Shown here: positions 33,265-59,775 of the stretch, piece by piece
How positions within the stretch are numbered: position 1 is the stretch's first letter
How the letters are laid out: every line of letters begins with the position of its first letter
Assembly (NCBI RefSeq): GCF_007750855.1
Contig: NZ_CP036291.1
Location: 2,976,001-3,040,000 of the forward strand
Direction of reading: 5' to 3'
DNA from: Pirellulimonas nuda
GTDB lineage: Bacteria; Planctomycetota; Planctomycetia; Pirellulales; Lacipirellulaceae
DNA: 64,000 nt
Notes under the pieces: generated by a model
Seen by the model: the letters and a program-made list of their open reading frames with translations, nothing else
What the model was told of the DNA's origin: nothing
Databases searched by the model: none
Made by a program: the position numbers and the translations under genes

Positions 33265-33847
33265 GTGCTGCCTCGGGTTGCTCAGGTTGGCGCCGCCCCT
33301 CGTTGAGGCCGATAGGATGACTGGGCTTGGCTGTGCATACCCTACCAGAAGGGTGACCCCACGGACCGAACAGCACAGTACCTGTCCCGCAGCGCGTCAG
33401 GCCGCGGGCCGCTGTCCACGAATGCTGTGCCTAGGACGCGCAGGAAGTAGGGCCGACCGTATGCTCCCACCCAGACCACGACCGCCCGCCTCAGGCTAGC
33501 GGAGGGGGGCCATGGAACGTGCGTCGTTGCGTCGCATCGCTCCACACGCGAGCCAGCGGCACGGCTCTGGCAGGTTGGGCCCTTTGCAGCCGGTCGACGC
33601 TATGCGTCTGTGGGCTGGATTGGGCCCCTTGGGCCCGGGGGTCGCTGCCTCTGCCAGACCTGCGGCGCTGAGCAGCCCCGGGCGAGCGTGGGCAACCGCC
33701 ATCGCCTTGAGCCCATCCTTGGGCGAGACGAGCGGTCGGTGCGGCGATGAATGGCCCCCGCCGTCCCCTCCTCGGTGCGTCGGCGCAACTACGGAGGTCT
33801 CCAGCACCGCTGCGGCTTATGGTCGGAAGCACCCCCCAACCGGATGG
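33265..33847. other. Intergenic stretch at the island border
   Basis: No supported gene. The sequence contains long GC-rich words (GGGCCCCTTGGGCCC at about 33622) and leads into the first partial copy of the island repeat. Confidence 0.4.
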
Positions 33848-45932: not shown

Positions 45933-46135
45933 CGGCGGTGCAGCTCACTTCCCTCGGGAGCCAACTGACCAAGAGTGCCTCGTCCGTAGCGGTTGGCCGG
46001 CTCCGCCAACTCGCAGAGGTGTCCCAACTCGGCCAAGACCGCCGCAGATATCTCGAGGTACCGAGCCGCCGAAGCTGGTCCATCTTCTGAAGCCTGCTCG
46101 GAGCCGAATCGGAAGGAAGCGATGTCCATCGCTGC
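45933..46135 (+). repeat. Island repeat, copy 4
   Basis: GCGGTGCAGCTCACTTCCCT, GTTGGCCGGCTCCGCCAACT, GTGTCCCAACTCGGCCAAGA and GGAAGCGATGTCCATCGCTG. Closest to the copy at 50.6 kb. Confidence 0.75.
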
Positions 46136-46432: not shown

Positions 46433-47275
46433 TTAGTTCGTAGCTTCTTTGTTCTCTTCGTCGCCCGACCCGGTGGGCGCTTTGGTCTGTTTTGGCCCGG
46501 TTTGGAGTTTTTCGGAGCCGGTGGGCGCTTTGGCCCTGTTTGACTCCTCGGCGCGGCGGCTCAGTCGGTAGCTCTTGCCGGTGATGGTGAGGATTTCGGC
46601 GTGGTGTAGGAACCGATCGAGGATCGCTGTGGCGGTCGGGACATCCCCCAGCAGCTTGCCCCAATCCTCGAGTGGTCGATTCGTCGTCATCATGGTGCTG
46701 CGCGTTTCGTGGCGCCGCATCACGATCTCGAACAAGAACTCGCCACTCCGCTTGGGGAGCTGCTTCATGCCGAAGTCGTCGATGATCAACAGGTCCGGCT
46801 TGAGGTAGCGATTCATGACCCTCTGGTGGCCCTCCATCGCTTCGTCGTGCAAGAAGTCGCGGACCACGTCGAAGATGCTGCGGTACAGAACCACGTAACC
46901 GAGCTTGATGAGCTGATAGCCGATGGCTTGGATGAGATGGCTCTTGCCGGTTCCGGGAGGTCCGCACAACAACACGTCGCGATGATCGTTCAGGAACCGA
47001 CCGGTCGATAGGTCGTAAACGACGTTCCTCTTGATCGACGTATTAAAACTCCAATCGAAATCCGTCAAGACCTTCAGCTCCCTGAAAGAGGCGGCCTTCA
47101 CGCGGCGGGCGATCTGTCGTTGGCCGCGGATAAGCATCTCGTCTTGCAAGATCAGCTCCAAGAACTCGACATGCGTCAGGCCGTTGCCGCTGGCTTCTTG
47201 AAGCCGGAGTTCTAGCGTCTCGGCGAGGCCCGACAGACGCAGTCTTCTCAACGTCGTGGAGAGCGTTTCGTTCAT
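46433..47275 (-). CDS. istB: IS21 helper ATPase IstB
   Basis: 280 residues. AAA+ motifs: Walker A 'GPPGTGKSHL', Walker B 'LLIIDDFGM', sensor 'STMMTTNRPLEDW', and C-terminal 'ILDRFLHHAEILTITGKSYRL'. It assists the IstA transposase in target choice and strand transfer. Its start overlaps the istA stop by four bases. After the normal end there is a ~35-residue tail with repeated 'KAPTGS', encoded by copies of the end-repeat motif. Confidence 0.9.
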   Translation of the reverse strand: MNETLSTTLRRLRLSGLAETLELRLQEASGNGLTHVEFLELILQDEMLIRGQRQIARRVKAASFRELKVLTDFDWSFNTSIKRNVVYDLSTGRFLNDHRDVLLCGPPGTGKSHLIQAIGYQLIKLGYVVLYRSIFDVVRDFLHDEAMEGHQRVMNRYLKPDLLIIDDFGMKQLPKRSGEFLFEIVMRRHETRSTMMTTNRPLEDWGKLLGDVPTATAILDRFLHHAEILTITGKSYRLSRRAEESNRAKAPTGSEKLQTGPKQTKAPTGSGDEENKEATN

Positions 47276-48459
47276 GAGCGGTAAGCCTCCGTTCTAAAGT
47301 CAACACGGACGACGTCGCCGTAGTCCGACAAGTTACGGATGATGGGGTGCTGATCAAGGAACTCGAACGTTCCCTGCTTGGACGCCGAATGCTCGATCAG
47401 CTTGCGGATCGTTGGTAAGCGATAAGATTGAAACGAATGGGCCGTTTCGCACGCTTGTTCGATCACCTGGGCGGGGTGCTTCCGCGACAGATTCAAGAGC
47501 CCCTGCAGCACCCGGACCGCTTCGACACCGCGTGTGGCTACCAAGCCGTGCGACCAATCCTTGGTGTTTTCGCCGATAAAACTGGCCTTTTTCAGCAGCC
47601 ACTCGGCGCCCCGTTCGACGGGGCTGATCTTCTCCGAGGCGATGTGCTCGGGCAGGGTGCTGAACCTGCCTGGCGACTGCGTGGCGTGCGTGCAGAGGAC
47701 CTCCATCTGGTCATTGAGAACGCGGACCAAGTGGGAATCCCACCGCACCCATAGCGTGCGTCCCAAGTACTCTGGCGGCACGCTGTAGTACGACTTGGCG
47801 ACCGCGATGTGCCCGTCGCGACTGACAATGCGTTGACCTTCCTGGAAGCAAGGGAAGCGCTCGCGCGGCAACGCCCCCAGCGTGGGGCGTTCCACCTCAC
47901 GGAAGTGCTTCAGCACTTGCTGCTGCGTCGTGCCGTGAATCCGCGTGTCGGCAACCGTGGTTTCCCAGTGCAGCAGGTGGTCGTTCTGCTCACGCAGGCT
48001 GCTGAACGTAAGTCCCTTCAGCGCGTTCTCCTGGACATAGGCCACCCCTCGTTCGACCTTGCCCTTGTGACGCGGCATGCGTGGCTTGGTCGGTAAGAGC
48101 GCGGCGCCGTAGTGCTCGCAGAAGCTGCGTAGCTTCGGATTGAGATCGGGGTCGTACCAATCGGCCTTCAGCACGGCCGCTTTGAGATTGTCAGGGACCA
48201 GCGTCTTGGGCACGCCGCCAAAATGCCAAAACGCATGCTCCAAACAATGAATCAGATCGTCGGTAGTCTGCCGATAGACGACCTCGCTATACGCCTTGCG
48301 CGAATGGCTCAGCACGACTCGCAAGACATGCGTCCGACGGCGACTGCCGTCCGCCGCGACGATCGGCGCCCCGGCGCCAAAGTCGATCTGGGCTTCTTGG
48401 CCAGGGGCGACTTCCATCCGCCGAAACGGCAGCGGCGTGTTCTGGCTGAGCTTGGCTAC

Positions 48460-49716
48460 CACGGCGATTGCGCCAAGCTAGGCAATATGCGACCCTCTAG
48501 GCAAGCCGGCGTTTGGAATGGCAGCAGGTGTTGCCTGGCGGCCGGCGGGACCTGGAGGGATGGGCATGGGCGCCAAGGCGAGCGTGCGGATTGCGGAGCA
48601 TTTCGAGGGCCTCACCGACCCGCGTCGGCGTGAGGTGACCTACCCGCTGGTGAACATCGTGGCGATGGCGTTGTGCGCGGTGCTGAGCGGGGCGGACGAC
48701 TTCGTGGCGATCGCCGACTGGTCGCGGGAGAAGAAGGATTGGCTGGCGAGATTCTTGGACATGAGCAGTGGGGTCCCCTCGCACGACCGCTTCAACGCGG
48801 TCTTCGCGGCGATCAAGCCGGCGGAGTTCGAGAAGTGCCTGCTGAGCTTCATCACGGCGTTGCACGAGGTGACCGAAGGGCAGGTGATCGCGATCGACGG
48901 CAAGACCTTACGGAGGAGCTTCGACGCGGCGAGCAGCAAGGCGCCGATCCACATGGTCAGCGCGTGGGCGTCGGCCAATCACATCGCGCTGGGGCAGGTG
49001 GTCACCGACGCGAAGAGCAACGAGATCACGGCCATTCCCAAGCTGCTGGATATCCTAGAAATCCAGGGGTGTTTGGTGACGATCGATGCGATGGGCTGCC
49101 AGCGGGAGATCGCCGAGCAGATCGTCGTGGGAGGGGGGGACTACGTGCTGGCGGTCAAGGGGAACCAGCCCAATCTGCACACAGCGATCAAGGGCTTCTT
49201 CGCCGCCCACCTCGAAGACGATTGCAGCGGCATCGATTGCCGCCGCTCCGAGTCGCACGAGAAGGGGCACGGCCGGCAGGACGATCGCTACTACTACTTA
49301 GCGAAGCTTCCGGACGGGTTCGACGAGGGGAGCAAGTGGCGCGGGCTCAAGGCGATCAGCCTGGCGTGCCGCATCACGACCCACGCCGACGGAACACAGA
49401 CGCACGACACCCGCTACTACATCGCCAGCCGCTACCTCAGCGGCCAAAAGTTCGCCGACGCGGTCCGTGGCCACTGGGCGATCGAGAACGCGTTGCACTG
49501 GCAACTAGACGTCACCTTCGGCGAAGACCAATGCCGCATCCGCAAAGGCCACGCCGACGCCAACTTCAGCCTGCTGCGCAGGACAGCGCTGAGCCTGCTC
49601 AAGAACAACACCTCACGCAAGCTGGGCGTCAAGAACAAACGCCTCGCGGCCGCATGGAGCGACCAGTATCGGCTGGAAGTCCTGTGCGGGAGGTGAGTTA
49701 TGGTGCGATCGCCCTG
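48460..49716 (+). mobile_element. ISAs1-family element nested in istA
   Basis: 1,257 bp. The left end starts CACGGCGATTGCGCCA, and the right read inward starts CAGGGCGATCGCACCA. GCTTGGCTAC flanks it on both sides (48450-48459 and 49717-49726), a 10-bp target duplication within the range known for this family. Confidence 0.9.
48566..49696 (+). CDS. ISAs1-family transposase
   Basis: About 376 residues from the ATG after GGAGGG (an ATG two codons earlier is also possible). The DDE_Tnp_1-associated N-terminus is 'FEGLTDPRRREVTYPLVNIVAMALCAVLSGADDF', followed by the catalytic region 'IAIDGKTLRRS', 'LVTIDAMGCQ' and 'GHWAIENALHWQLDVTFGEDQCRIRKG'. It reads complete and is probably functional, so it may be the most recent insertion here. 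Confidence 0.92.
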   Translation: MGAKASVRIAEHFEGLTDPRRREVTYPLVNIVAMALCAVLSGADDFVAIADWSREKKDWLARFLDMSSGVPSHDRFNAVFAAIKPAEFEKCLLSFITALHEVTEGQVIAIDGKTLRRSFDAASSKAPIHMVSAWASANHIALGQVVTDAKSNEITAIPKLLDILEIQGCLVTIDAMGCQREIAEQIVVGGGDYVLAVKGNQPNLHTAIKGFFAAHLEDDCSGIDCRRSESHEKGHGRQDDRYYYLAKLPDGFDEGSKWRGLKAISLACRITTHADGTQTHDTRYYIASRYLSGQKFADAVRGHWAIENALHWQLDVTFGEDQCRIRKGHADANFSLLRRTALSLLKNNTSRKLGVKNKRLAAAWSDQYRLEVLCGR

Positions 49717-50513
49717 GCTTGGCTACGAACCGGCGTACGCTGTGGTACTTGCCGGTAAATCCGTGCTCGGCGACTAGGTCTTGGAAGATCCGCTGGGCCG
49801 CTAAGCCTTGCTCAAGCTTGGCAAGCACCAAGCCGCGGAACGGGTCGCACAGACTCCGCGACCCGGGGGGCGCTTTGGCCCTGTTTGGGGGGGCTTCGGC
49901 AGCCTCCGACCCGGGAGGCGCTTTGGCACTGTTTGAACCCTCCGGCCCGTCGCTCTGGAGCGTCGGCCCGGAGCCCGCCAGCAACTGACGTGCAACGGCG
50001 CCACGACTAATCCCCAGCTCCCGAGCGATCCGCCGCTGCGACCAGCCTTGCAACTGTAACGTCCTAATGGACAACACTTTAGCCACCTTCAATCGGTTCG
50101 CCATGCGATCAGTTCCATTGCTCAGACGAAAGCAATGCAGCCTACGCGGCAAACCGCCTTAGTGGCCCTGTTTCAAGCGCCTGTCGCTGGTACTGTTTGA
50201 GCGCCCCGTGACATCCAAGGCAGCTATTTCCGTTGCAATCGCTTGCGTTGTTGTAGGACTGGCATTTTTTACCTGGAATAGCTCTGTGGCCCAGCAAGCA
50301 GACATTGGCAAAACGAGAACCCAACCGAATATGCTTTGGAGGGGCGTGTCGTCAAACGCCCGCCTGGAAGTATGCCGGACGAGGGTCCCTGGCGGCTGGT
50401 TCGTGTTTGTGACTAAGAATTCAACGAGAGTGACAGAACCGAGTCCGCAGCCGGGTTCGGGAGCATTCTTCTACCCCGACCCTGAACACAAATGGAATGG
50501 TACGAGCCAATAG

Positions 50514-51105: not shown

Positions 51106-52758
51106 ATGTTGCAACGATCATCCGATCAAATCGCGTTCCCGACGCTCGACGATCAACAGATTGCGCAGGTAGCGGAGCTGGCGGAGCTTACTCACTTCAA
51201 GGACGGGGAGGAGCTGATCGCACATGCTCAGAAGGACTATCCCTTCTATGTGATCCGCACCGGCCGGGTGCTGATCGTTGAGCGAGACGACGGTCAGGAC
51301 AGGCCGATCGCGACGCACTGCGCCCGGGCGTTCGTGGGCGACGTCGACATGCTGACGGGCCGATCGTCGATGTTCGTGGCGCTGGCGGACGGGCCGGTCG
51401 ATGCGTACCGGCTATGCGCCATCGGACTTCGCCGCTTGTTGCGCGACCGTCCGACGATCGGCGAGGTGCTGCTGGAGGCCTTCCAGATGCGGCGGCAGAT
51501 GCTGGCGGACCTGCCGTTTGTCGGCGTACGCGTCGTGGGACGCGCCAAACAGGCCCAGACCACACGTCTGCTCGAGTTCCTATACAAGAACCACGTTCCG
51601 AACACGTACTTCGACGCCGACGACGCACCTGGGATGGGCGAGCTGGTCAGGCTGGCCGCGCAGACGCTGCCGCTGCCGGTGGTCCGCTGCAACGGCCACA
51701 CGGTGGGCGACCCTTCGCTTCCAAGGCTGGCCGAGTGCATCGGCATCAACCGCAATGTGGACCAACAGAGGTTCGACCTTGTGATCGTAGGCTCCGGGCC
51801 GGCCGGGCTGGCCGCAGCCGTATACGCCTCCTCCGAGGGGGTTAGCACACTTGTTATCGATAGTGTCGGCCCAGGGGGACAGGCCGGGAGCAGCTCGAAG
51901 ATCGAGAACTTCATGGGGTTCCCGTCCGGCCTCAGCGGAAGCGAGTTGGCCGGCCGAGGCTACCTGCAGGCGCTCAAATTTGGGACGCAGTTCATCGCCC
52001 CGATCACGGTCTCGGCGATCGAGCCTCAGCCTTCTGGCGAGCACCACCTGACGCTCTGCTCCGGCCAGACGGCGCGGGCGCGTTGCGTGCTGGTCGCCAG
52101 CGGCGTCTCCTACCGCCAGCTCGACCTGGCGGGCTGTCGCGAGTTCGAGGGGGCGGGCGTCTACTACGCAGCCACCTCCGTGGAGTCGCGCGCGTGCGAG
52201 GGGGACGTGGCGGTGGTGGTCGGCGGCGGCAACTCCGCCGGTCAGGCGGCCATGTTCCTCGCGGCGCACGCCCGAGAAGTCAAAGTGCTGATCCGCGGCA
52301 ACGACCTGCGGGCGAAGATGTCTTCCTACTTGGCGGAGCGGGTGCTCCAGCACCCTAACATCCGCGTGATCCTTAACGCTGAGGTCGCGGCGGTTGAAGG
52401 CGACGTGTGCGTCCGTTCGATCCAGCTCCGCGACCGCACGAACGGTGCGACTAGCCGAGCAGACTGCGCGGGGCTCTTCATCTTTGTCGGCGCCAAGCCG
52501 CACACTGAGTGGCTTCCACGCGACGTGCTGCTAGATGAAAACGGCTTTGTCGTGACGGGATCGGCGTTTTTTGGTCAGGACGCATCGCTGCGCTCTCGCT
52601 GGCCGTTGGAGAGACCCCCGTGTGATCTTGAAACCACGGTTCCGGGAATCCTCGCGGCGGGTGACGTTCGCAGCGGCGCCCTCAAGCGCTGTGGATTTGC
52701 GGTGGGCGAGGGCTCGTTGGCTGTGGCGTGCGTGCACCGCTTACTCAGCCTAGCCTGA
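51106..52758 (+). CDS. Cyclic-nucleotide-domain/thioredoxin-reductase-like flavoprotein
   Basis: 550 residues in three parts. A cNMP-binding-like sensor (~10-130: 'FKDGEELIAHAQKDYPFYVIRTGRVLIV', 'FVGDVDMLTGRSS') comes first. A short thioredoxin-fold-like region (~145-215) follows, and then a two-dinucleotide-fold flavoprotein. The FAD motif is 'VIVGSGPAGLAAAVYASSEG' near 228, then 'GPGGQAGSSSKIENFMGFPSGLSG'. The NADP/NAD motif is 'VVVGGGNSAGQAAMFLA'. The redox CxxC of true thioredoxin reductases is absent. The family probably reduces an unknown partner under ligand control. It is followed after 7 bp by the DACNV gene, so the two are likely co-transcribed. Confidence 0.85.
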   Translation: MLQRSSDQIAFPTLDDQQIAQVAELAELTHFKDGEELIAHAQKDYPFYVIRTGRVLIVERDDGQDRPIATHCARAFVGDVDMLTGRSSMFVALADGPVDAYRLCAIGLRRLLRDRPTIGEVLLEAFQMRRQMLADLPFVGVRVVGRAKQAQTTRLLEFLYKNHVPNTYFDADDAPGMGELVRLAAQTLPLPVVRCNGHTVGDPSLPRLAECIGINRNVDQQRFDLVIVGSGPAGLAAAVYASSEGVSTLVIDSVGPGGQAGSSSKIENFMGFPSGLSGSELAGRGYLQALKFGTQFIAPITVSAIEPQPSGEHHLTLCSGQTARARCVLVASGVSYRQLDLAGCREFEGAGVYYAATSVESRACEGDVAVVVGGGNSAGQAAMFLAAHAREVKVLIRGNDLRAKMSSYLAERVLQHPNIRVILNAEVAAVEGDVCVRSIQLRDRTNGATSRADCAGLFIFVGAKPHTEWLPRDVLLDENGFVVTGSAFFGQDASLRSRWPLERPPCDLETTVPGILAAGDVRSGALKRCGFAVGEGSLAVACVHRLLSLA

Positions 52759-52765
52759 CGCCGCC

Positions 52766-54064
52766 ATGGAAGAGCAGAAACGCCTCAACCCGACTGGCTA
52801 CGCCTACCCCGCACACCTCGCCGCGGCGCTGCGTCGGGGCTGGGCGGACCGCGCCCTCGACCCTGCGCTGCTGCCGTGCTCCGACTCGGTCGAGCTGTTG
52901 ATCGACACCATGTACCAAGCAAGCTTGCTGCGAGAAGAATCACAAGGGGTGCAGTGCCGGATTATCGCCGCGGGCCCGAGCACGTTTGACTCCGCCCTGC
53001 GGGACGGCGCCAGCAGCCTACAGGTGTTGCGCTTCAACGAGCCGTTTGACTTCACCCCCCACCAGCTCAGGAAACTCGCGGGCGCCTCCGGATACTACCG
53101 GTCGCTGCTGGCGGTGGACTGCGACTCGGGGGGCCCTCCGCTCATCTGGGGGATGGTTATCACCGGCACTGATTGGGTCAACCGAGTCATCACGGACAAG
53201 GCGGACGATGACCCGCTGCCGCAGCGCCTGGTGGTCCACTGCATCGGCCCGGGCCACCTGCTAGCAGCGGCCGGAGACATCCGCGTGGTGGAATCGTCGG
53301 GCGGCAAGCTGCTTACCGAGGGCTTTGATCCGTTCCGCTCTCAGTGGCTGCCGGGCCGCTTCGGCGCCATGCGGGCGAATATGATCCAGCAGCTCGAAGG
53401 CCAGCAGCCTTCGGGCGGTTCGACGACTCGGCTGTGCGATTCGTTCGTGCGCGACGTGGCCCAGCGCGTGGTGCGAAGGGCTCTCCGCTTGGTGCGGACG
53501 CGCGGGCACGGCGGAATGCTCATCTACCTGGCCGACGCGGACGTCCAGCGGGCCGAGCTCGGTCGCTGGCTGCGTTTCCGGGTTCGGTTCGCGGACGACG
53601 ACTCGACCCTCCGGTTTGTTCGCCTGATGAAGCGGCTGATGGAGCGGGCACTGCAGCTCGGGGTCGAGCTCGGCTTGGCGGAGGTGACCTACGAAGACTT
53701 CCGCCAGATGCGCGACGTGCGGCTCGACGAACTCAAGGGAGCGATCATCGAACTCGGCCATGTGTTCGCGGACATGATGAGCGTCGACGGGGCCCTGGTG
53801 CTCGATCGAGGCTTCCGCTTGATCGGGTTCGGCGCCGAGATCTTAGGAGACTCTCACGTGGACACTGTGTTCCGCGCCCTCGACCTCGAAGCGACGCGCA
53901 GCGTTCCGGAGCGGGCCGACATGTCGGGCACGCGTCACCGCTCGGCCTACCGCCTGGTGCGCGGGCTGCCTGAGACCATCGCGGTGGTGGTTTCCCAAGA
54001 CGGCGACGTCCGGTTCATCGCCCAGACCGACCCCGGGATCACCTGCTGGCACTACCTGCCATAG
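52766..54064 (+). CDS. DACNV-type (diadenylate-cyclase-related) sensor protein
   Basis: 432 cytoplasmic residues. The C-terminal ~110 residues resemble the nucleotide-binding domain related to DisA/DAC enzymes: 'MMSVDGALVLDRGFRLIGFGAEI' near 335-357 (the DGA position) and 'SGTRHRSAYRLVRG' near 386-399 (the RHR position), then 'AVVVSQDGDVRFI'. The N-terminal ~320 residues include 'RLVVHCIGPGHLLAAAG' and 'HGGMLIYLADAD' and match what I recall of DACNV-containing proteins. Whether it makes or only senses a dinucleotide is not decided by sequence. Coupled to the upstream flavoprotein gene (7 bp). Confidence 0.65.
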   Translation: MEEQKRLNPTGYAYPAHLAAALRRGWADRALDPALLPCSDSVELLIDTMYQASLLREESQGVQCRIIAAGPSTFDSALRDGASSLQVLRFNEPFDFTPHQLRKLAGASGYYRSLLAVDCDSGGPPLIWGMVITGTDWVNRVITDKADDDPLPQRLVVHCIGPGHLLAAAGDIRVVESSGGKLLTEGFDPFRSQWLPGRFGAMRANMIQQLEGQQPSGGSTTRLCDSFVRDVAQRVVRRALRLVRTRGHGGMLIYLADADVQRAELGRWLRFRVRFADDDSTLRFVRLMKRLMERALQLGVELGLAEVTYEDFRQMRDVRLDELKGAIIELGHVFADMMSVDGALVLDRGFRLIGFGAEILGDSHVDTVFRALDLEATRSVPERADMSGTRHRSAYRLVRGLPETIAVVVSQDGDVRFIAQTDPGITCWHYLP

Positions 54065-54538: not shown

Positions 54539-55702
54539 CTATCGTGATCGCCGCTTCACCGCGTAGCCGTAAGGAATTGGCCATGCGGGTTCACCGCCGA
54601 GTTCCTGCGCGGCCTTGATCGCCCAGTAGGGTTCACGGAGCATTTCGCGGGCCAGCAGTACCAGGTCGGCATCGCCGCTGGTGATGATTTCGTTGGCGTC
54701 CTTGGCCTGGGTGATCAGCCCCACAGCGCCGGTCTTGATCGAGGCCTCGTGGCGAATCTGGCGGGAGAATGGCACCTGGTAGCCCTTGCCCACCGCGATG
54801 CTGGCCTTGGGCACCAGCGCGCCGCTGGAGACGTCGATCAGATCTACGCCCAGTGCTTTCAGTTCCCGCGAGAGCACCACCGACTGCTCGACGTCCCATC
54901 CGCCGTCGGTCCAGTCTGTGGCCGAGATGCGAACGAACACCGGCAGTTCGTCGGGCGTCAGCCGGCGGATGCGATCGGCAACCTCTAGCGTGAGCCGCAT
55001 GCGGTTCTCGAGACTGCCGCCGTACCGGTCGGTCCGCTGGTTCGCCAGTGGTGAGAGGAACTCGTGCAGCAAGTAACCGTGCGCGGCGTGAATTTCGATC
55101 ACGCGAAACCCCGCTTCGAGCGCGCGGCGCGTCGCGGCCTCGAACGCGGCCGTCACTTCCTCAATGCCAGACTTCTCGAGTGGCGTCGGTGCGGGGTCGC
55201 CTTCGTTGAATGGCAGCGGACTCGGGGCCACCGCTTCCCATCCACCCTGGTCGGCGTTCAGCACAGCACCACCCCGCCACGGCACGTCGCAACTCGCCTT
55301 GCGGCCAGCGTGCGCCAATTGGATTCCGGCCACGGAGCCTTGCGAATGAATGAACTCGGCGATGCGTGCCAGCGGTGCGATGTGCTGGTCGCCCCAAATG
55401 CCTAGATCGCCCGGTGATATCCGGCCCTGGGGCGTGATGGCCGTTGCTTCGGCGATCACTAGCGCCGCGCCGCCTGAGGCGCGACTGCCGAGATGCACCA
55501 AGTGCCAGTCGCTGGCCAATCCGTCTTCGGCAACGTACTGGCACATGGGCGAAACGACGATGCGATTACGAAAGGTTACGCCGCGGATGCTGAGCGGCGT
55601 CAAGAGATCGATCTCCGGCACTTCGCGATCGTGGTCGGTTCCTGCCAGACAACCTTGGCCCGATGGCGACTTACCAGCTCGGCTCGAATCGCGTTCCGAC
55701 AT
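54539..55702 (-). CDS. Old Yellow Enzyme-family NADH:flavin oxidoreductase (YqjM-like)
   Basis: 387 residues; an FMN-dependent ene-reductase that reduces activated C=C bonds of enals, enones and similar electrophiles. TIM-barrel landmarks: 'NRIVVSPMCQYVAEDG' with the FMN-modulating Cys of the YqjM class, 'GIQLAHAGRKAS', 'VIEIHAAHGYLLHEFLSPLANQRTDRYGGSLENR', 'VFVRISATDW' and 'LVLLAREMLREPYW'. I chose the ATG at 55702; the domain proper begins ~30 residues later, and longer upstream extensions are not family-like. It is divergent from the alcohol dehydrogenase gene, with a 208-bp shared promoter region. Confidence 0.9.
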   Translation of the reverse strand: MSERDSSRAGKSPSGQGCLAGTDHDREVPEIDLLTPLSIRGVTFRNRIVVSPMCQYVAEDGLASDWHLVHLGSRASGGAALVIAEATAITPQGRISPGDLGIWGDQHIAPLARIAEFIHSQGSVAGIQLAHAGRKASCDVPWRGGAVLNADQGGWEAVAPSPLPFNEGDPAPTPLEKSGIEEVTAAFEAATRRALEAGFRVIEIHAAHGYLLHEFLSPLANQRTDRYGGSLENRMRLTLEVADRIRRLTPDELPVFVRISATDWTDGGWDVEQSVVLSRELKALGVDLIDVSSGALVPKASIAVGKGYQVPFSRQIRHEASIKTGAVGLITQAKDANEIITSGDADLVLLAREMLREPYWAIKAAQELGGEPAWPIPYGYAVKRRSR

Positions 55703-55910
55703 GCTTTCTGATCCCGGTGGAGACCTGCGGAAGCATGCAACGAGCGTTGTATGCAGGCCGCAACCCTTGGCCAAAGTATTGGAATCCCGGCATCGCGCTC
55801 CGTCAACAACGACGTGCACGAATTCGTATTGCCCCCGCATTGCTTCCTTGCCCAGCAGCCATATACTTCGGACCGCCAGCAGACCCCCGCTCCCCGTCAG
55901 GAAAGAGCCG

Positions 55911-56915
55911 ATGTTCAAAGCCTATGCCGCCAGTTCCTCCGAAAGCGGTTTCGAAGTTATCGAGTTCGATCCCGGCCCGTTGGGCGCCGACGAAGTGGAA
56001 GTGGCCGTCGAGTATTGCGGTCTCTGCCACAGCGACTTGAGCATGAAGCGCAACGAGTGGAACATGACTGAGTACCCGTTCGTCGGCGGGCACGAAGTGG
56101 CAGGCCGCATCGAGCAGTTGGGCAGCGACGTTCAAGGCCTGGAAGTTGGCCAGCGCGTCGGCATCGGTTGGACGTCAGCCAGTTGCCTGCGGTGCGACCA
56201 GTGCCAAAGCGGCTATCAGAATCGCTGCCCAACTGCCGAAGGAACTATCGTCGGTCGACACGGCGGCTTCGCCGATCGTGTGCGCGCCCAGGCCGCGTGG
56301 ACGATTCCCATACCCGAAGGAGTCGATTCCGTAGATTGTGGCCCGCTGTTCTGTGGGGGCCTGACGGTATTCAATCCGTTCGTCGAGAACAGCATCCTGC
56401 CTACCGCACGCGTAGCGGTGATCGGCATCGGCGGCCTGGGTCACATGGCGCTGCAGTTCGCCAATGCGTGGGGCTGCGACGTCACCGTGTTCAGCACCTC
56501 GCCCGACAAGGAGGAAGAAGCTCGCCAGATGGGCGCCCATCAATTTCTGAGCACCCGCGACCCGCAGGCCCTGGAGTCGGTGGTCGGCAAGTTCGATATG
56601 GTGCTCGACACTGTGGATGCCTCACTGGACTGGGACGCTTACCTCGCGACGCTACGCCCCGGCGGAAAACTGCACATGGTGGGCGCCGCCGAGAAAGTTG
56701 AGGCGACGGTGTTTCCGATGATCATGGGGCAAAAATCGATCGGTGCTTCGCCCACGGGTAGTATCACGCGTGCTAAAGAGATGCTTGAGTTCTGCGCTCG
56801 CCACCAGATCAAGCCGATGGTGGAGAACTTCGCGATGAGCGACATCAACACGGCCTTCCAGCGGCTAATCGATGGCAAGGCCCGCTACCGCATTGTGCTG
56901 AAGGCGGACTGGTAG
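55911..56915 (+). CDS. Zinc-dependent alcohol dehydrogenase (YahK/cinnamyl-type)
   Basis: 334 residues, ATG with AGGAAAG eight bases upstream. Catalytic zinc site in 'EYCGLCHSDL' (C36) and 'GGHEVAG' (H61, E62). Structural zinc cysteines in 'CLRCDQCQSGYQNRC' (C92, C95, C98, C106). Nucleotide-binding 'VAVIGIGGLGHMALQFANAWG'. These mark an NADP(H)-preferring aldehyde reductase of the YahK/CAD group. The divergent partner is an ene-reductase; together they could detoxify unsaturated aldehydes to saturated alcohols. Confidence 0.9.
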   Translation: MFKAYAASSSESGFEVIEFDPGPLGADEVEVAVEYCGLCHSDLSMKRNEWNMTEYPFVGGHEVAGRIEQLGSDVQGLEVGQRVGIGWTSASCLRCDQCQSGYQNRCPTAEGTIVGRHGGFADRVRAQAAWTIPIPEGVDSVDCGPLFCGGLTVFNPFVENSILPTARVAVIGIGGLGHMALQFANAWGCDVTVFSTSPDKEEEARQMGAHQFLSTRDPQALESVVGKFDMVLDTVDASLDWDAYLATLRPGGKLHMVGAAEKVEATVFPMIMGQKSIGASPTGSITRAKEMLEFCARHQIKPMVENFAMSDINTAFQRLIDGKARYRIVLKADW

Positions 56916-57309: not shown

Positions 57310-57690
57310 TACAAACCCGCGGAGGTGCAGCTCTCCTCCGTCGGATCGCGGACTGCCCAGCTGACCGAGGGCGCATCAGCCAGCACGACCAGGGTCGATG
57401 CCGACCTGCGGGCGGTGTCAGCCGGGTCGGGACACCGCTGCGAGTTGGCGCCGGGCAGCCAGCGTGCGTCGGCTGGTCCATCTCGGGCAACTTGGCCGGT
57501 GCCGGATCTGAGGGAAGAGATGTCCACCGCCGCGGATTGGCCAAGTGCCCAAGCTAATTCTGCATAAGCGGCGGCCCAGTCGGATCGTCAGTCGGCAAAG
57601 CTTGCGGGCGACCGGAGTTACGGCGACAATCGGGGCGTCTACTTATGAGGTTAGGCAAAATCGTTTCTGTAAATTTGTTGTTCTGCAATA
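57310..57690 (+). repeat. Island repeat, copy 6 (full length)
   Basis: Both halves are present: GAGGTGCAGCTCTCCTCCGT ... GCCGACCTGCGGGCGGTGTC ... AGATGTCCACCG ... CAGTCGGATCGTCAGTCGGC ... GAGGTTAGGC ... TTTCTGTAAATTTGTTGTT. It ends 17 bp before a small gene. Confidence 0.85.
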
Positions 57691-57706: not shown

Positions 57707-57964
57707 ATGAACGCTTACGAAGTGCTTCGGGACATCCACCCAATCGGAAGCCGACTCGTTGGCATAGTGACTGGCCGCACCGAAATCGAAATGACTCACG
57801 GTTTCCCGGGTGGGCACGTTACGCTCGATACATCCTCTGAGTTCCGAGCCATTCTCTTGTATGACCACCTCACTGACGATCATTCGCGATTCGACCCTGA
57901 ACTGATTCCAAACCTCGGATCTCAGATCGCAACTGTAGTGGACCCCGGAAACTGGACCACCTGA
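57707..57964 (+). CDS. Small cassette protein, 3' end replaced by IS3
   Basis: The ATG at 57707 opens 85 codons ('NAYEVLRDIHPIGSRLVGIVTGRTEIEMTHGFPGGHV', 'FRAILLYDHLTDDHSRFDPEL'). Only the first ~75 are native, since the IS3 end begins at 57934 and supplies the last codons and stop. It is soluble, without signal peptide, family unknown. A GTTAGGC core lies at 57650-57656 in the repeat upstream, as for the other cassette-like ORFs. Probably inactivated. Confidence 0.5.
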   Translation: MNAYEVLRDIHPIGSRLVGIVTGRTEIEMTHGFPGGHVTLDTSSEFRAILLYDHLTDDHSRFDPELIPNLGSQIATVVDPGNWTT

Positions 57965-59168
57965 TAGGATGCGATCCGGCGTCGGCCGGGTTGCGGATCA
58001 GGAGGCTTGAGGATGGGCAGGAAGCGGCGGGAGTTTTCTTCGTCGTTCAGGGCGAAGGTTGCGTTGGCGGCGGCGAATGGGGACGCGACGCTCGCGGAGC
58101 TTGCGAGCAAGCACGGGGTCTACCCGAACCAGATCTCGGCGTGGAAGAAGCAGCTGCTCGAAGGGGGCGAGCGGTCTGTTCGAGGACGGGCGGAAGCGGA
58201 AGGTGACAGACGAGTCGGCGGACGCCGCGGCGCCAGTGCGAGCTGTTAGGGCTGCCAGGGTCGAGCTGCTACTACCAGCCGCTTGGCGAGAGTAAGGCGA
58301 ACCTGGCGTTGATGCGACAGATCGACGAGCTGTACACGCGATGGCCGTTCTATGGCAGCCGGCGGCTGGCCGACGAGCTCGGGGTGAACCGCAAGCGTCT
58401 GCAGCGGCTGATGGGGCTGATGGGAATCGAGGCGGTCTACCCGAAGCGATCGACGACGCGGCGTGCCGCGGGACACCAGGTCTACCCGTACCTGCTGAGG
58501 AACGTGGAGGTCGGGGTCGATTAGGTGTGGAGCAGCGACATCACGTACGTGCCGCTGGCGGGTGGTTTTGCTGTACTTGGCTGCGGTGATGGACTGGTTC
58601 AGCCGGAAGGTGCTCAGTTGGGGGCTGTCGAACACGTTGGACGGGTTGTTCTGCTGCGAGGCGCTCGACGCGGCGCTCGCGGGAGCGGCCGGAGGTGTTC
58701 AACACGGAACAGGGCTGCCAGTTGACGTCGCGGGCATTCACGCAGCGGCTGGAAGTGTGTGGGGTGGAGATCAGCATGGACGGCAAGGGGCGGGCGCTCG
58801 ACAACGTGTTCATCGAGAGGCTGTGGCGGAGCGTCAAGTACGAGGAGATGAACCTGAAGAGCTACGCGAGCGTCGCGGAGGCCCAACGCGGCCTATCGTG
58901 CTACTTCGAGGTCTACAACAACCGAAGGCGACATCAGTCACTGAAACGCCGTACGCCGAGTGAGGTCTGCGAAGAAGGGCTCAAGACGGCGCCCCCAAGC
59001 GGGCGAACTTCTCAGAGCTAGCCGGAATTATTGGGGAGCACGCAATCAGTGGCCCCTGCCGTCGCAGGGTCCGCGGCCGTGCGTGACCTTCGGAGGGTCC
59101 CACGGGCCGCCAAGGCGGCTAACTACTAAACCACCCTTCGGGTGGTCCAGTGGATGGGGTCCACTACA
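57934..59168 (+). mobile_element. Decayed IS3-family element with preserved ends
   Basis: The left end TGTAGTGGACCCCGGAAACT and the right end read inward TGTAGTGGACCCCATCCACT, both continuing GGACCACC, are well-kept inverted repeats over 1,235 bp. The coding part is riddled with frameshifts. No clear target duplication is visible (flanks CAAC and GCTG). Confidence 0.85.
58007..59021 (+). pseudogene. IS3-family transposase, frameshifted
   Basis: Pieces in order over several frames: OrfA helix-turn-helix ('GDATLAELASKHGVYPNQISAWKKQLLEG'), then 'KRKVTDESADAA', OrfB N-terminus ('LMRQIDELYTRWPFYGSRRLADELG'), a stop after 'VEVGVD' where the family has 'QVWSSDITYVPL', the first DDE region, 'AAVMDWFSRKVLSWGLSN', and a last long piece with 'GVEISMDGKGRALDNVFIERLWRSVKYEE'. 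At least three frame changes and one nonsense codon show it is dead. The second acidic block lies at a frame break. Confidence 0.85.
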
Positions 59169-59397
59169 GCTGGACAACCGGCTACCCGCTACGAGTCCGA
59201 ATGACTTTCGTAGCTACAACCATTAACCCGCAGTCCAAGGCGCGCTGCCGATAGCCGGTGCCAGACCTTGTACATTAGGCGGCTTGGTCGAGTGCCCTTA
59301 CATCGCCTCATCGCTTCTGAGGCACCCACACCCCCGCATATCTGGTTAATCTTAGAGTCGCTGATGTTGAACAAGCCTCCCGCTCTGAGGCCATCCT

Positions 59398-59775
59398 CGA
59401 ACTCGCGCAGGTGCAGCTCACCTCTTTTGGGGTTGCGGACTGGCCAACGGACCGAGGGCGCTGCAGACAGTACGACCAGGGTCGATGTCGACCTGCGGGC
59501 GGTGTGTGCCGGGTCAGGACACCGCCGCGAGTTGATGCTGGCCAGCACGCGCGTCGACTGGTCCATCTCCGACAGGTTGGCTGGAGCCAAATCTGAACGA
59601 AGTGACGGCCACCTCAGCGACTTCGCCGAACCTCCAAGCCGTTTCTGCATCAGCAGCGGACCGGTCGGATCGTCAGGCGGCGAAGCTTGCGAACGACTGT
59701 GGTTACGGCGACAATGAGCGTGGCTGCAAATTGGGTTAGGCGGAATCGCTTCTGTACATTTTTTGTTCTGTCGCA
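59398..59775 (+). repeat. Island repeat, copy 7 (full length)
   Basis: CAGGTGCAGCTCACCTCTTT ... GTCGACCTGCGGGCGGTGTG ... GAACGAAGTGACGGCCACCT ... CCGGTCGGATCGTCAGGCGG ... GTTACGGCGACAATGAGCGT ... GGGTTAGGC ... TTCTGTACATTTTTTGTTC. It ends 22 bp before a small membrane-protein gene. Confidence 0.85.

Follow-up and report, generated by a model that had tools for sequence, protein, structure and literature searches.

The gene glmM is located in the operon of cdaA, and Pycsar systems consist of a cyclase gene and a gene for a protein with a cyclic-nucleotide-binding (CNB) domain. GlmM inhibits the diadenylate cyclase (DAC) CdaA by contact (PMC8573169, excerpt). Five DAC classes, CdaA, DisA, CdaS, CdaM, and CdaZ, are distinguished in the excerpt of PMC10167629, and DACNV is not among the classes given there. 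One CNB family, Bact_Pyrredox, carries a pyridine nucleotide-disulphide oxidoreductase domain and has been described with tandem CNB domains in which the key Arg is kept (PMC2246266, excerpt). Here, we compare these systems with a locus of the planctomycete Pirellulimonas nuda (assembly GCF_007750855.1, contig NZ_CP036291.1, positions 2,976,001 to 3,040,000 of the forward strand; this whole stretch of 64,000 nucleotides is referred to as the window), where a gene encoding a CNB-domain flavoprotein (gene 1) precedes a gene encoding a DACNV and DAC-like protein (gene 2). A sequence-only reading of the window had singled out the two as a unit, and both open reading frames (ORFs) are indeed present on the plus strand, 7 bp apart (Table 1). 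Our results indicate that this is a real, clade-restricted, and facultative gene pair, in which gene 2, judging from its predicted fold and conserved residues, probably encodes a competent cyclase.

Gene 2 carries a DACNV domain and a predicted DAC fold

Gene 2 belongs to the DACNV family in Pfam (PF21751, 91.4 bits against a cut-off of 27, residues 34–131). The sequence-only reading had called it DACNV-type and pointed to DGA and RHR signatures; both are present, but they are located in the C-terminal DAC-like domain, whereas DACNV is N-terminal. The predicted model of the protein, built from an alignment of 31 rows, has a mean predicted local distance difference test (pLDDT) score of 86. All 50 rows shown by Foldseek for this model are DisA, CdaA, DacA, or DacM/CdaM-type chains or the Bacillus cereus entry 2FB5. 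By VIA-align, 40 DAC entries match at Z 9.9–12.6, and the next entry, which is unrelated, drops to Z 4.3; the match to Thermotoga maritima DisA (4yxm) reaches Z 12.6 over 136 residues with a root-mean-square deviation of 2.8. The C-terminal domain thus models on the DisA_N/DAC fold, a point on which the sequence-only reading had made its proposal depend. Within the full-length model, the N-terminal part matched fructose-bisphosphatases at Z values of about 4, which is too weak for use. A profile search of PDB sequences with gene 2 placed two designed repeat proteins at the top, taken as chance matches, followed by 15 DAC-type chains (E 0.0055–0.097).

The residues expected at a DAC active site are largely conserved. 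Across 31 cyclase rows, that of the window included, D341, G342, G388, R390, H391, S410, and D412 are invariant, and gene 2 contains both the DGA and the GXRHRXA motifs of the DAC family. At the site of the SEET motif it has SQDG, in which the Ser is kept and the two Glu are replaced by Gln and Asp; the Ser and the Asp occur in 31/31 rows. Every row has V, I, A, or T directly before DGA. A His at this position is present in CdaA-type and absent in DisA-type enzymes, and in Leptospira CdaA the equivalents of the Asp and of the first Arg are indispensable, with a contribution from the Ser (PMC12974146, excerpt). Replacement of RHR abolishes the activity of a mycobacterial DisA-type enzyme, whereas replacement of the DGA Gly does not (PMC3328451, excerpt). 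From the DAC fold and the invariant active-site residues, we infer that the gene 2 protein is probably a competent cyclase.

The same genome contains, elsewhere, one DAC match over the cut-off (L024, 1018–2016; near position 6603225 of contig C1), which has DGA but ARHWA and SSSSG. The riboswitch RF00379, which responds to cyclic di-AMP (c-di-AMP), was not found in the P. nuda genome by a search that detected its control in only 2 of 14 cases.

The flavoprotein gene is adjacent to the cyclase gene in 11 of 20 close loci

To describe how often the two genes are neighbours, we defined close cyclases as those with about 47% identity or more to that of the window. This set comprises 20 loci: 12 from a draw of 397 genomes of the class, one (L097) from a scan of genome contigs that yielded four loci and only this new one, and seven from a draw of 396 genomes of the order. 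Two of the cyclases are in pieces (G581, 42–61% by piece; G794, 48 and 57%). A search of 170 genomes of the family gave no further close cyclase locus, and 13 other genomes of the class draw, with weak cyclase matches, are outside these counts. The flavoprotein gene is directly adjacent and on the same strand in 11 of the 20 loci (the window, L026, L027, L028, L076, L079, L080, L082, L097, L171, and L176). It precedes the cyclase gene in the window and in L076 and follows it in the other nine; the intergenic gaps measure 7 bp at the least and about 0.34 kb at the most. At the broken cyclase of G581, a piece of the flavoprotein gene lies about 7 kb off on the same contig. Same-strand adjacency at 11 of 20 loci exceeds what chance would produce.

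A census of the class draw, in which three candidates were scored per genome, detected the flavoprotein at E 1e-60 in 63 of the 397 genomes, eight of which also have an intact close cyclase. Where a genome has an intact close cyclase, the flavoprotein is present in 8 of 11 cases, versus 55 of the 386 other genomes (Fisher p 3e-5, uncorrected for kinship).

Gene 1 encodes a flavoprotein without CxxC and without the canonical CNB Arg

Gene 1 has a two-domain FAD/NAD(P) core (Pyr_redox_2 in Pfam, 101.6 bits, residues 223–536). It scored 211.9 bits with the NCBIfam thioredoxin reductase equivalog TIGR01292, below the threshold of 343.45. The claim that it is a flavoprotein lacking CxxC was borne out: YAAT occupies the thioredoxin reductase CxxC position, and the motif occurs nowhere in the protein. 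The predicted model (mean pLDDT 86) is nearest to AhpF, the best match, and to thioredoxin reductases (Foldseek E down to 4.8e-30), and residues 140–215 or so appear to form a thioredoxin-like domain, the name and boundaries of which are our own. Four cysteines, C195, C211, C506, and C542, are conserved in 22/22 aligned planctomycete flavoproteins, and C529 in 20/22.

The CNB assignment is based on a cNMP_binding match (PF00027, residues 29–113) of 28.6 bits, barely above the cut-off of 27.5. The phosphate-binding cassette of canonical CNB domains holds a key Arg, Arg209 (PMC2246266, excerpt), and gene 1 has no equivalent of it. Among the 22 aligned flavoproteins, the window included, this position is A in 12, S in seven, T in two, and I in one, with the same pattern whether or not a cyclase gene is next door. 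The cassette Glu is replaced by Asp in all 22, an Arg two residues before the canonical position is kept in 21, and His71 is invariant. Because the canonical Arg is absent from 22/22 rows and from five plasmid-borne relatives, a role as a canonical cAMP or cGMP sensor is unlikely on these alignments; a different ligand for the CNB-like domain is possible. Of the cyclic-nucleotide-like sensor proposed in the sequence-only reading, the CNB fold thus stands, but its interpretation as a sensor is weak. Gating of the flavoprotein by a cyclic mononucleotide is weakened by the missing Arg and was not supported.

Table 1. Features of the gene pair, in window coordinates
Feature	Position	Strand	Remarks
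Flavoprotein gene (gene 1)	51106..52758	+	550 aa; CNB-like, thioredoxin-like, and thioredoxin-reductase-like FAD/NAD(P) core
CNB-fold domain, residues 29-113	51190..51444	+	cNMP_binding 28.6 bits; phosphate-binding cassette GDVDMLTGRSS without canonical Arg
Putative thioredoxin-like linker domain, ~residues 140-215, no CxxC	51523..51750	+	From secondary structure of the model; name and boundaries approximate
Pyr_redox_2 core, residues 223-536	51772..52713	+	Pfam 101.6 bits
YAATS, residues 354-358, at thioredoxin reductase CxxC site	52165..52179	+	Sequence alignment
Intergenic gap, 7 bp	52759..52765	.	Between gene 1 and gene 2
DACNV/DAC-like gene (gene 2)	52766..54064	+	432 aa
DACNV domain, probable sensor, residues 34-131	52865..53158	+	Pfam 91.4 bits
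DAC-fold domain, ~residues 225-432	53438..54061	+	Structural matches start between residues 185 and 227
DGA motif, residues 341-343	53786..53794	+	D, G in 31/31 rows; third position A 19, S 8, C 3, F 1
GTRHRSA motif, residues 388-394 (RHR 390-392)	53927..53947	+	G, first R, H in 31/31; second R in 26/31
SQDG, residues 410-413, at CdaA SEET metal/ATP site	53993..54004	+	S, D in 31/31; Q in 29/31

The pair may be a redox/nucleotide signalling unit

Our leading but tentative proposal is that the two genes form a co-expressed redox/nucleotide signalling unit, with the flavoprotein providing an input to an active cyclase, a reading that we hold as possible but short of probable. Under this proposal, the two genes would be co-transcribed, the gene 2 protein would make c-di-AMP or a similar dinucleotide, and its DACNV domain would sense some signal. 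The flavoprotein would supply redox or NAD(P)H input to the cyclase, most likely through a contact with the enzyme or with its DACNV domain that alters dimerisation, for which the contact inhibition of CdaA by GlmM serves as an analogy. The nucleotide might also act back on the CNB-like domain, but this would be less likely. If gene 2 does encode a competent cyclase, its control by the flavoprotein would be a plausible though uncertain arrangement, by analogy with GlmM; shared regulation without direct coupling would come after it as a credible but less probable one, and gating of the flavoprotein by the nucleotide would be rather unlikely. Of the two directions of control, that from flavoprotein to cyclase is slightly favoured.

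A number of results weigh against such a unit. The Pfam DAC profile (PF02457) scored only 20.4 bits at residues 356–419 of gene 2, under its cut-off of 27, and the SEET motif is replaced as described above. Six of the 20 close-cyclase genomes are without the flavoprotein: a search of G512, G580, and G619 found only 31–32% matches to part of the reductase core, and G893, G932, and G972 gave no flavoprotein at E 1e-30. Two more genomes (G938 and G946) have it elsewhere. Among 29 more distant cyclase loci with wide flanks, several on short contigs, none has the flavoprotein (L029–L045, L083–L090, and L092–L095, including L088, a truncated 46% relative); nor was it seen at six further distant loci with flanks of at most 1.5 kb (L021, L070, and L072–L075). 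Conversely, 55 of the 63 flavoprotein genomes have no intact close cyclase. The trees belong here as well. On a 23-row cyclase tree the paired state requires six changes, and 66 of 500 shuffles needed as few, so that it is not clearly clustered within the cyclase clade. On the cyclase tree of the 11 pairs, a grouping of four of these loci is not rejected (approximately unbiased [AU] test, p 0.19), so that joint inheritance is possible.

Taken together, the adjacency in 11 of 20 close loci, its absence from the 29 distant ones, and the frequent occurrence of the flavoprotein without the cyclase indicate a clade-restricted, facultative pair. The sequence-only reading had treated rarity of this neighbourhood elsewhere as fatal to its proposal; the neighbourhood does recur, and in both gene orders, but it was seen only within a single cyclase clade. 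For the flavoproteins of the pairs, a single clade is rejected both with 11 pair rows against 13 comparison rows (AU p 8e-66) and with nine against 13 (AU p 2e-39), the comparison rows being 13 of 20 retrieved stretches. The paired label requires six changes on the flavoprotein tree, a number reached by 41 of 500 shuffles. Furthermore, G657 and G794, which belong to one genus, have opposite gene orders and flavoproteins of two different lineages. We do not claim an independent, repeated association, because an ancient pair from which the cyclase was lost many times would also fit and co-inheritance was not rejected; both histories are possible. Under either of them, the genes are adjacent across much divergence (the proteins are 47–61% and 48–68% identical to those of the window), with the gene order changed at least once.

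The explanation that comes next after control of the cyclase, though we consider it unlikely, is a shared regulon, whereby the two genes are expressed jointly in redox or electrophile stress and their products act separately. It is consistent with the finding of both genes alone and with the genes that follow the window pair, one for an Old Yellow Enzyme family protein (54539–55918, minus strand) and one for a zinc alcohol dehydrogenase (within 55350–56915, plus strand). Further genes that may fit lie near some other pairs or related loci (MsrA, alcohol dehydrogenase, SDR, and HxlR at L097; cupin and FMN reductase at L080; glyoxalase at L079; HxlR at L091) and near lone flavoproteins (nitroreductase at L130; SDR and FMN reductase at L134; HxlR and alcohol dehydrogenase at L140). 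However, these come from 20 neighbouring proteins picked by eye with no enrichment control, and other pairs are flanked by unrelated genes for LacI (L026), DNA alkylation repair (L028), or DUF1269 (L076) proteins. We therefore regard the redox neighbourhood of the pair and of the flavoprotein as suggestive, a lead and not a result.

Control could also run the other way, as was the main idea of the sequence-only reading, with a cyclic dinucleotide made by the cyclase binding the CNB-like domain and switching an NAD(P)H-dependent reductase on or off, which would be Pycsar-like logic with a DAC enzyme. The CNB fold of gene 1 and a weak PADLOC match of its residues 18–79 to PycTIR (E 0.0023) speak for this, as does the fact that CNB domains elsewhere bind other ligands, such as haem and chlorophenols (PMC2246266, excerpt). 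The cassette changes at the Arg and Glu positions, found irrespective of a cyclase neighbour, the lack of the Arg in the five plasmid-borne relatives as well, and the absence of this cyclase from most flavoprotein genomes make it clearly unlikely, more so than a shared regulon. Least probable of all, and in our view quite improbable, is that the DAC-like domain has no cyclase activity and serves as a nucleotide-binding sensor, informing the flavoprotein of the nucleotide state. The replacement of SEET by SQDG, the DAC score under the Pfam cut-off, and a model that, over the matched range, exceeds S. aureus DacA by about 70 residues would agree with an inactive domain, but D341, R390, H391, S410, and D412 are as invariant as those of a working site would be, and Asp can replace Glu as a metal ligand. 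Weighing these alternatives, we retain input from the flavoprotein to an active cyclase as the working proposal.

Related genes and mobile DNA around the pair

On mobile elements, there was no match in phages, and none was confirmed in viral contigs. In plasmids, the only matches were two Hymenobacter records, both for DACNV proteins; no flavoprotein is among the features listed nearby, in feature tables that are incomplete. Two DACNV genes without the flavoprotein, one planctomycete (L081, 5187–6062) and one on a Hymenobacter plasmid (L151, 6996–7775), have an SDR oxidoreductase gene upstream on the same strand.

Upstream of the pair, the window contains an IS21-type istB/istA element (46433–50152, minus strand) with a DDE transposase gene inside (48518–49696, plus strand), which we take to be ISAs1-like. 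The latter sits between the main part of istA and an upstream part containing a helix-turn-helix, as if one element had inserted into another. A dispersed repeat of about 340 bp is present downstream at 57343–57685 and 59430–59770 and has 42 matches in the P. nuda genome, many of them partial. Partial copies lie in the window near 33841, 38070, 43528, and 46074, and an 85-nt stretch related to the repeat occurs at 45960 and 50613; related copies thus flank the gene pair on both sides. At 57930–59172, imperfect inverted repeats of 35 nt (83% complementary) surround an integrase-core ORF (58695–59021), and this element is probably IS3-like.

Significance of the pair

Both proteins consist of known domains that already have names in Pfam; what is new is their pairing. 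The sequence-only reading knew of no experimental description of such a pair, and likewise none was among the matches listed in searches of open-licence literature on DACNV, on DAC families and their contexts, and on CNB-domain thioredoxin reductases. No open-licence paper on DACNV was found, and no study of c-di-AMP in planctomycetes was among the matches listed in a literature search. The presence of the pair in several planctomycetes hints at a connection between redox state and nucleotide signalling. We put forward, as a proposal still short of likely, that DACNV proteins make up an additional class of diadenylate cyclases that has yet to be studied, one planctomycete clade of which is wired to a CNB/thioredoxin-reductase-like flavoprotein, with the redox state setting the dinucleotide level or the dinucleotide setting the reductase activity. 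If true, this would add one more DAC class to the five of PMC10167629 (excerpt), tie redox chemistry directly, and in a testable way, to dinucleotide signalling in planctomycetes, and give a partner, and hence a testable function, to a common flavoprotein family without the thioredoxin reductase cysteines.

Comparison with known systems

The flavoprotein has many relatives outside the pair. At E 1e-60, 125 plasmid records, named as CNB-domain thioredoxin-disulfide reductase-like proteins, share the architecture of gene 1, and the rows listed are 37–41% identical to it. Five aligned members from plasmids of other phyla are also without CxxC at the site and without the cassette Arg. Of the cysteines conserved in planctomycetes, C506, C529, and C542 are found in none of these five, and C195 and C211 are absent in four and present in that of Microvirga. 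On Streptomyces and Rhodococcus plasmids (L153 and L154), clpB, trxA, a gene for a UBP-type zinc finger protein, and then the CNB-thioredoxin-reductase-like gene follow one another in the same order. Bact_Pyrredox, with its tandem CNB domains and retained Arg, is not the form seen in gene 1.

The pair resembles Pycsar in outline, as a cyclase gene beside a gene for a CNB-domain protein, but the cyclase fold differs: gene 2 is predicted to have a DAC fold, has no PADLOC match at E 0.01, and does not qualify as a PycC-type cyclase gene. The proposed likeness to GlmM and CdaA, by analogy, is that of an enzyme controlling a DAC enzyme by contact, although GlmM is a phosphoglucosamine mutase, unlike the gene 1 flavoprotein.

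Among DACNV proteins (PF21751), whose records bear the name "putative sensor domain DACNV-containing protein", the two Hymenobacter plasmid members are 31–35% identical to gene 2. The distant relatives examined have unrelated neighbours, and the flavoprotein was seen beside only one clade. Gene 2 is like the DisA, CdaA, and DacM-type enzymes (PF02457) in its predicted fold (Z 9.9–12.6), its DGA and GXRHRXA motifs, and the Ser of SEET, and it is like the DisA type in having V, I, A, or T and not His before DGA (PMC12974146, excerpt). It is unlike the known DAC enzymes in its sub-cut-off Pfam score, in SQDG for SEET, in about 70 extra residues relative to S. aureus DacA across the matched stretch of the model (225–432 versus 110–247), and in the fusion of the DAC-like domain behind DACNV.

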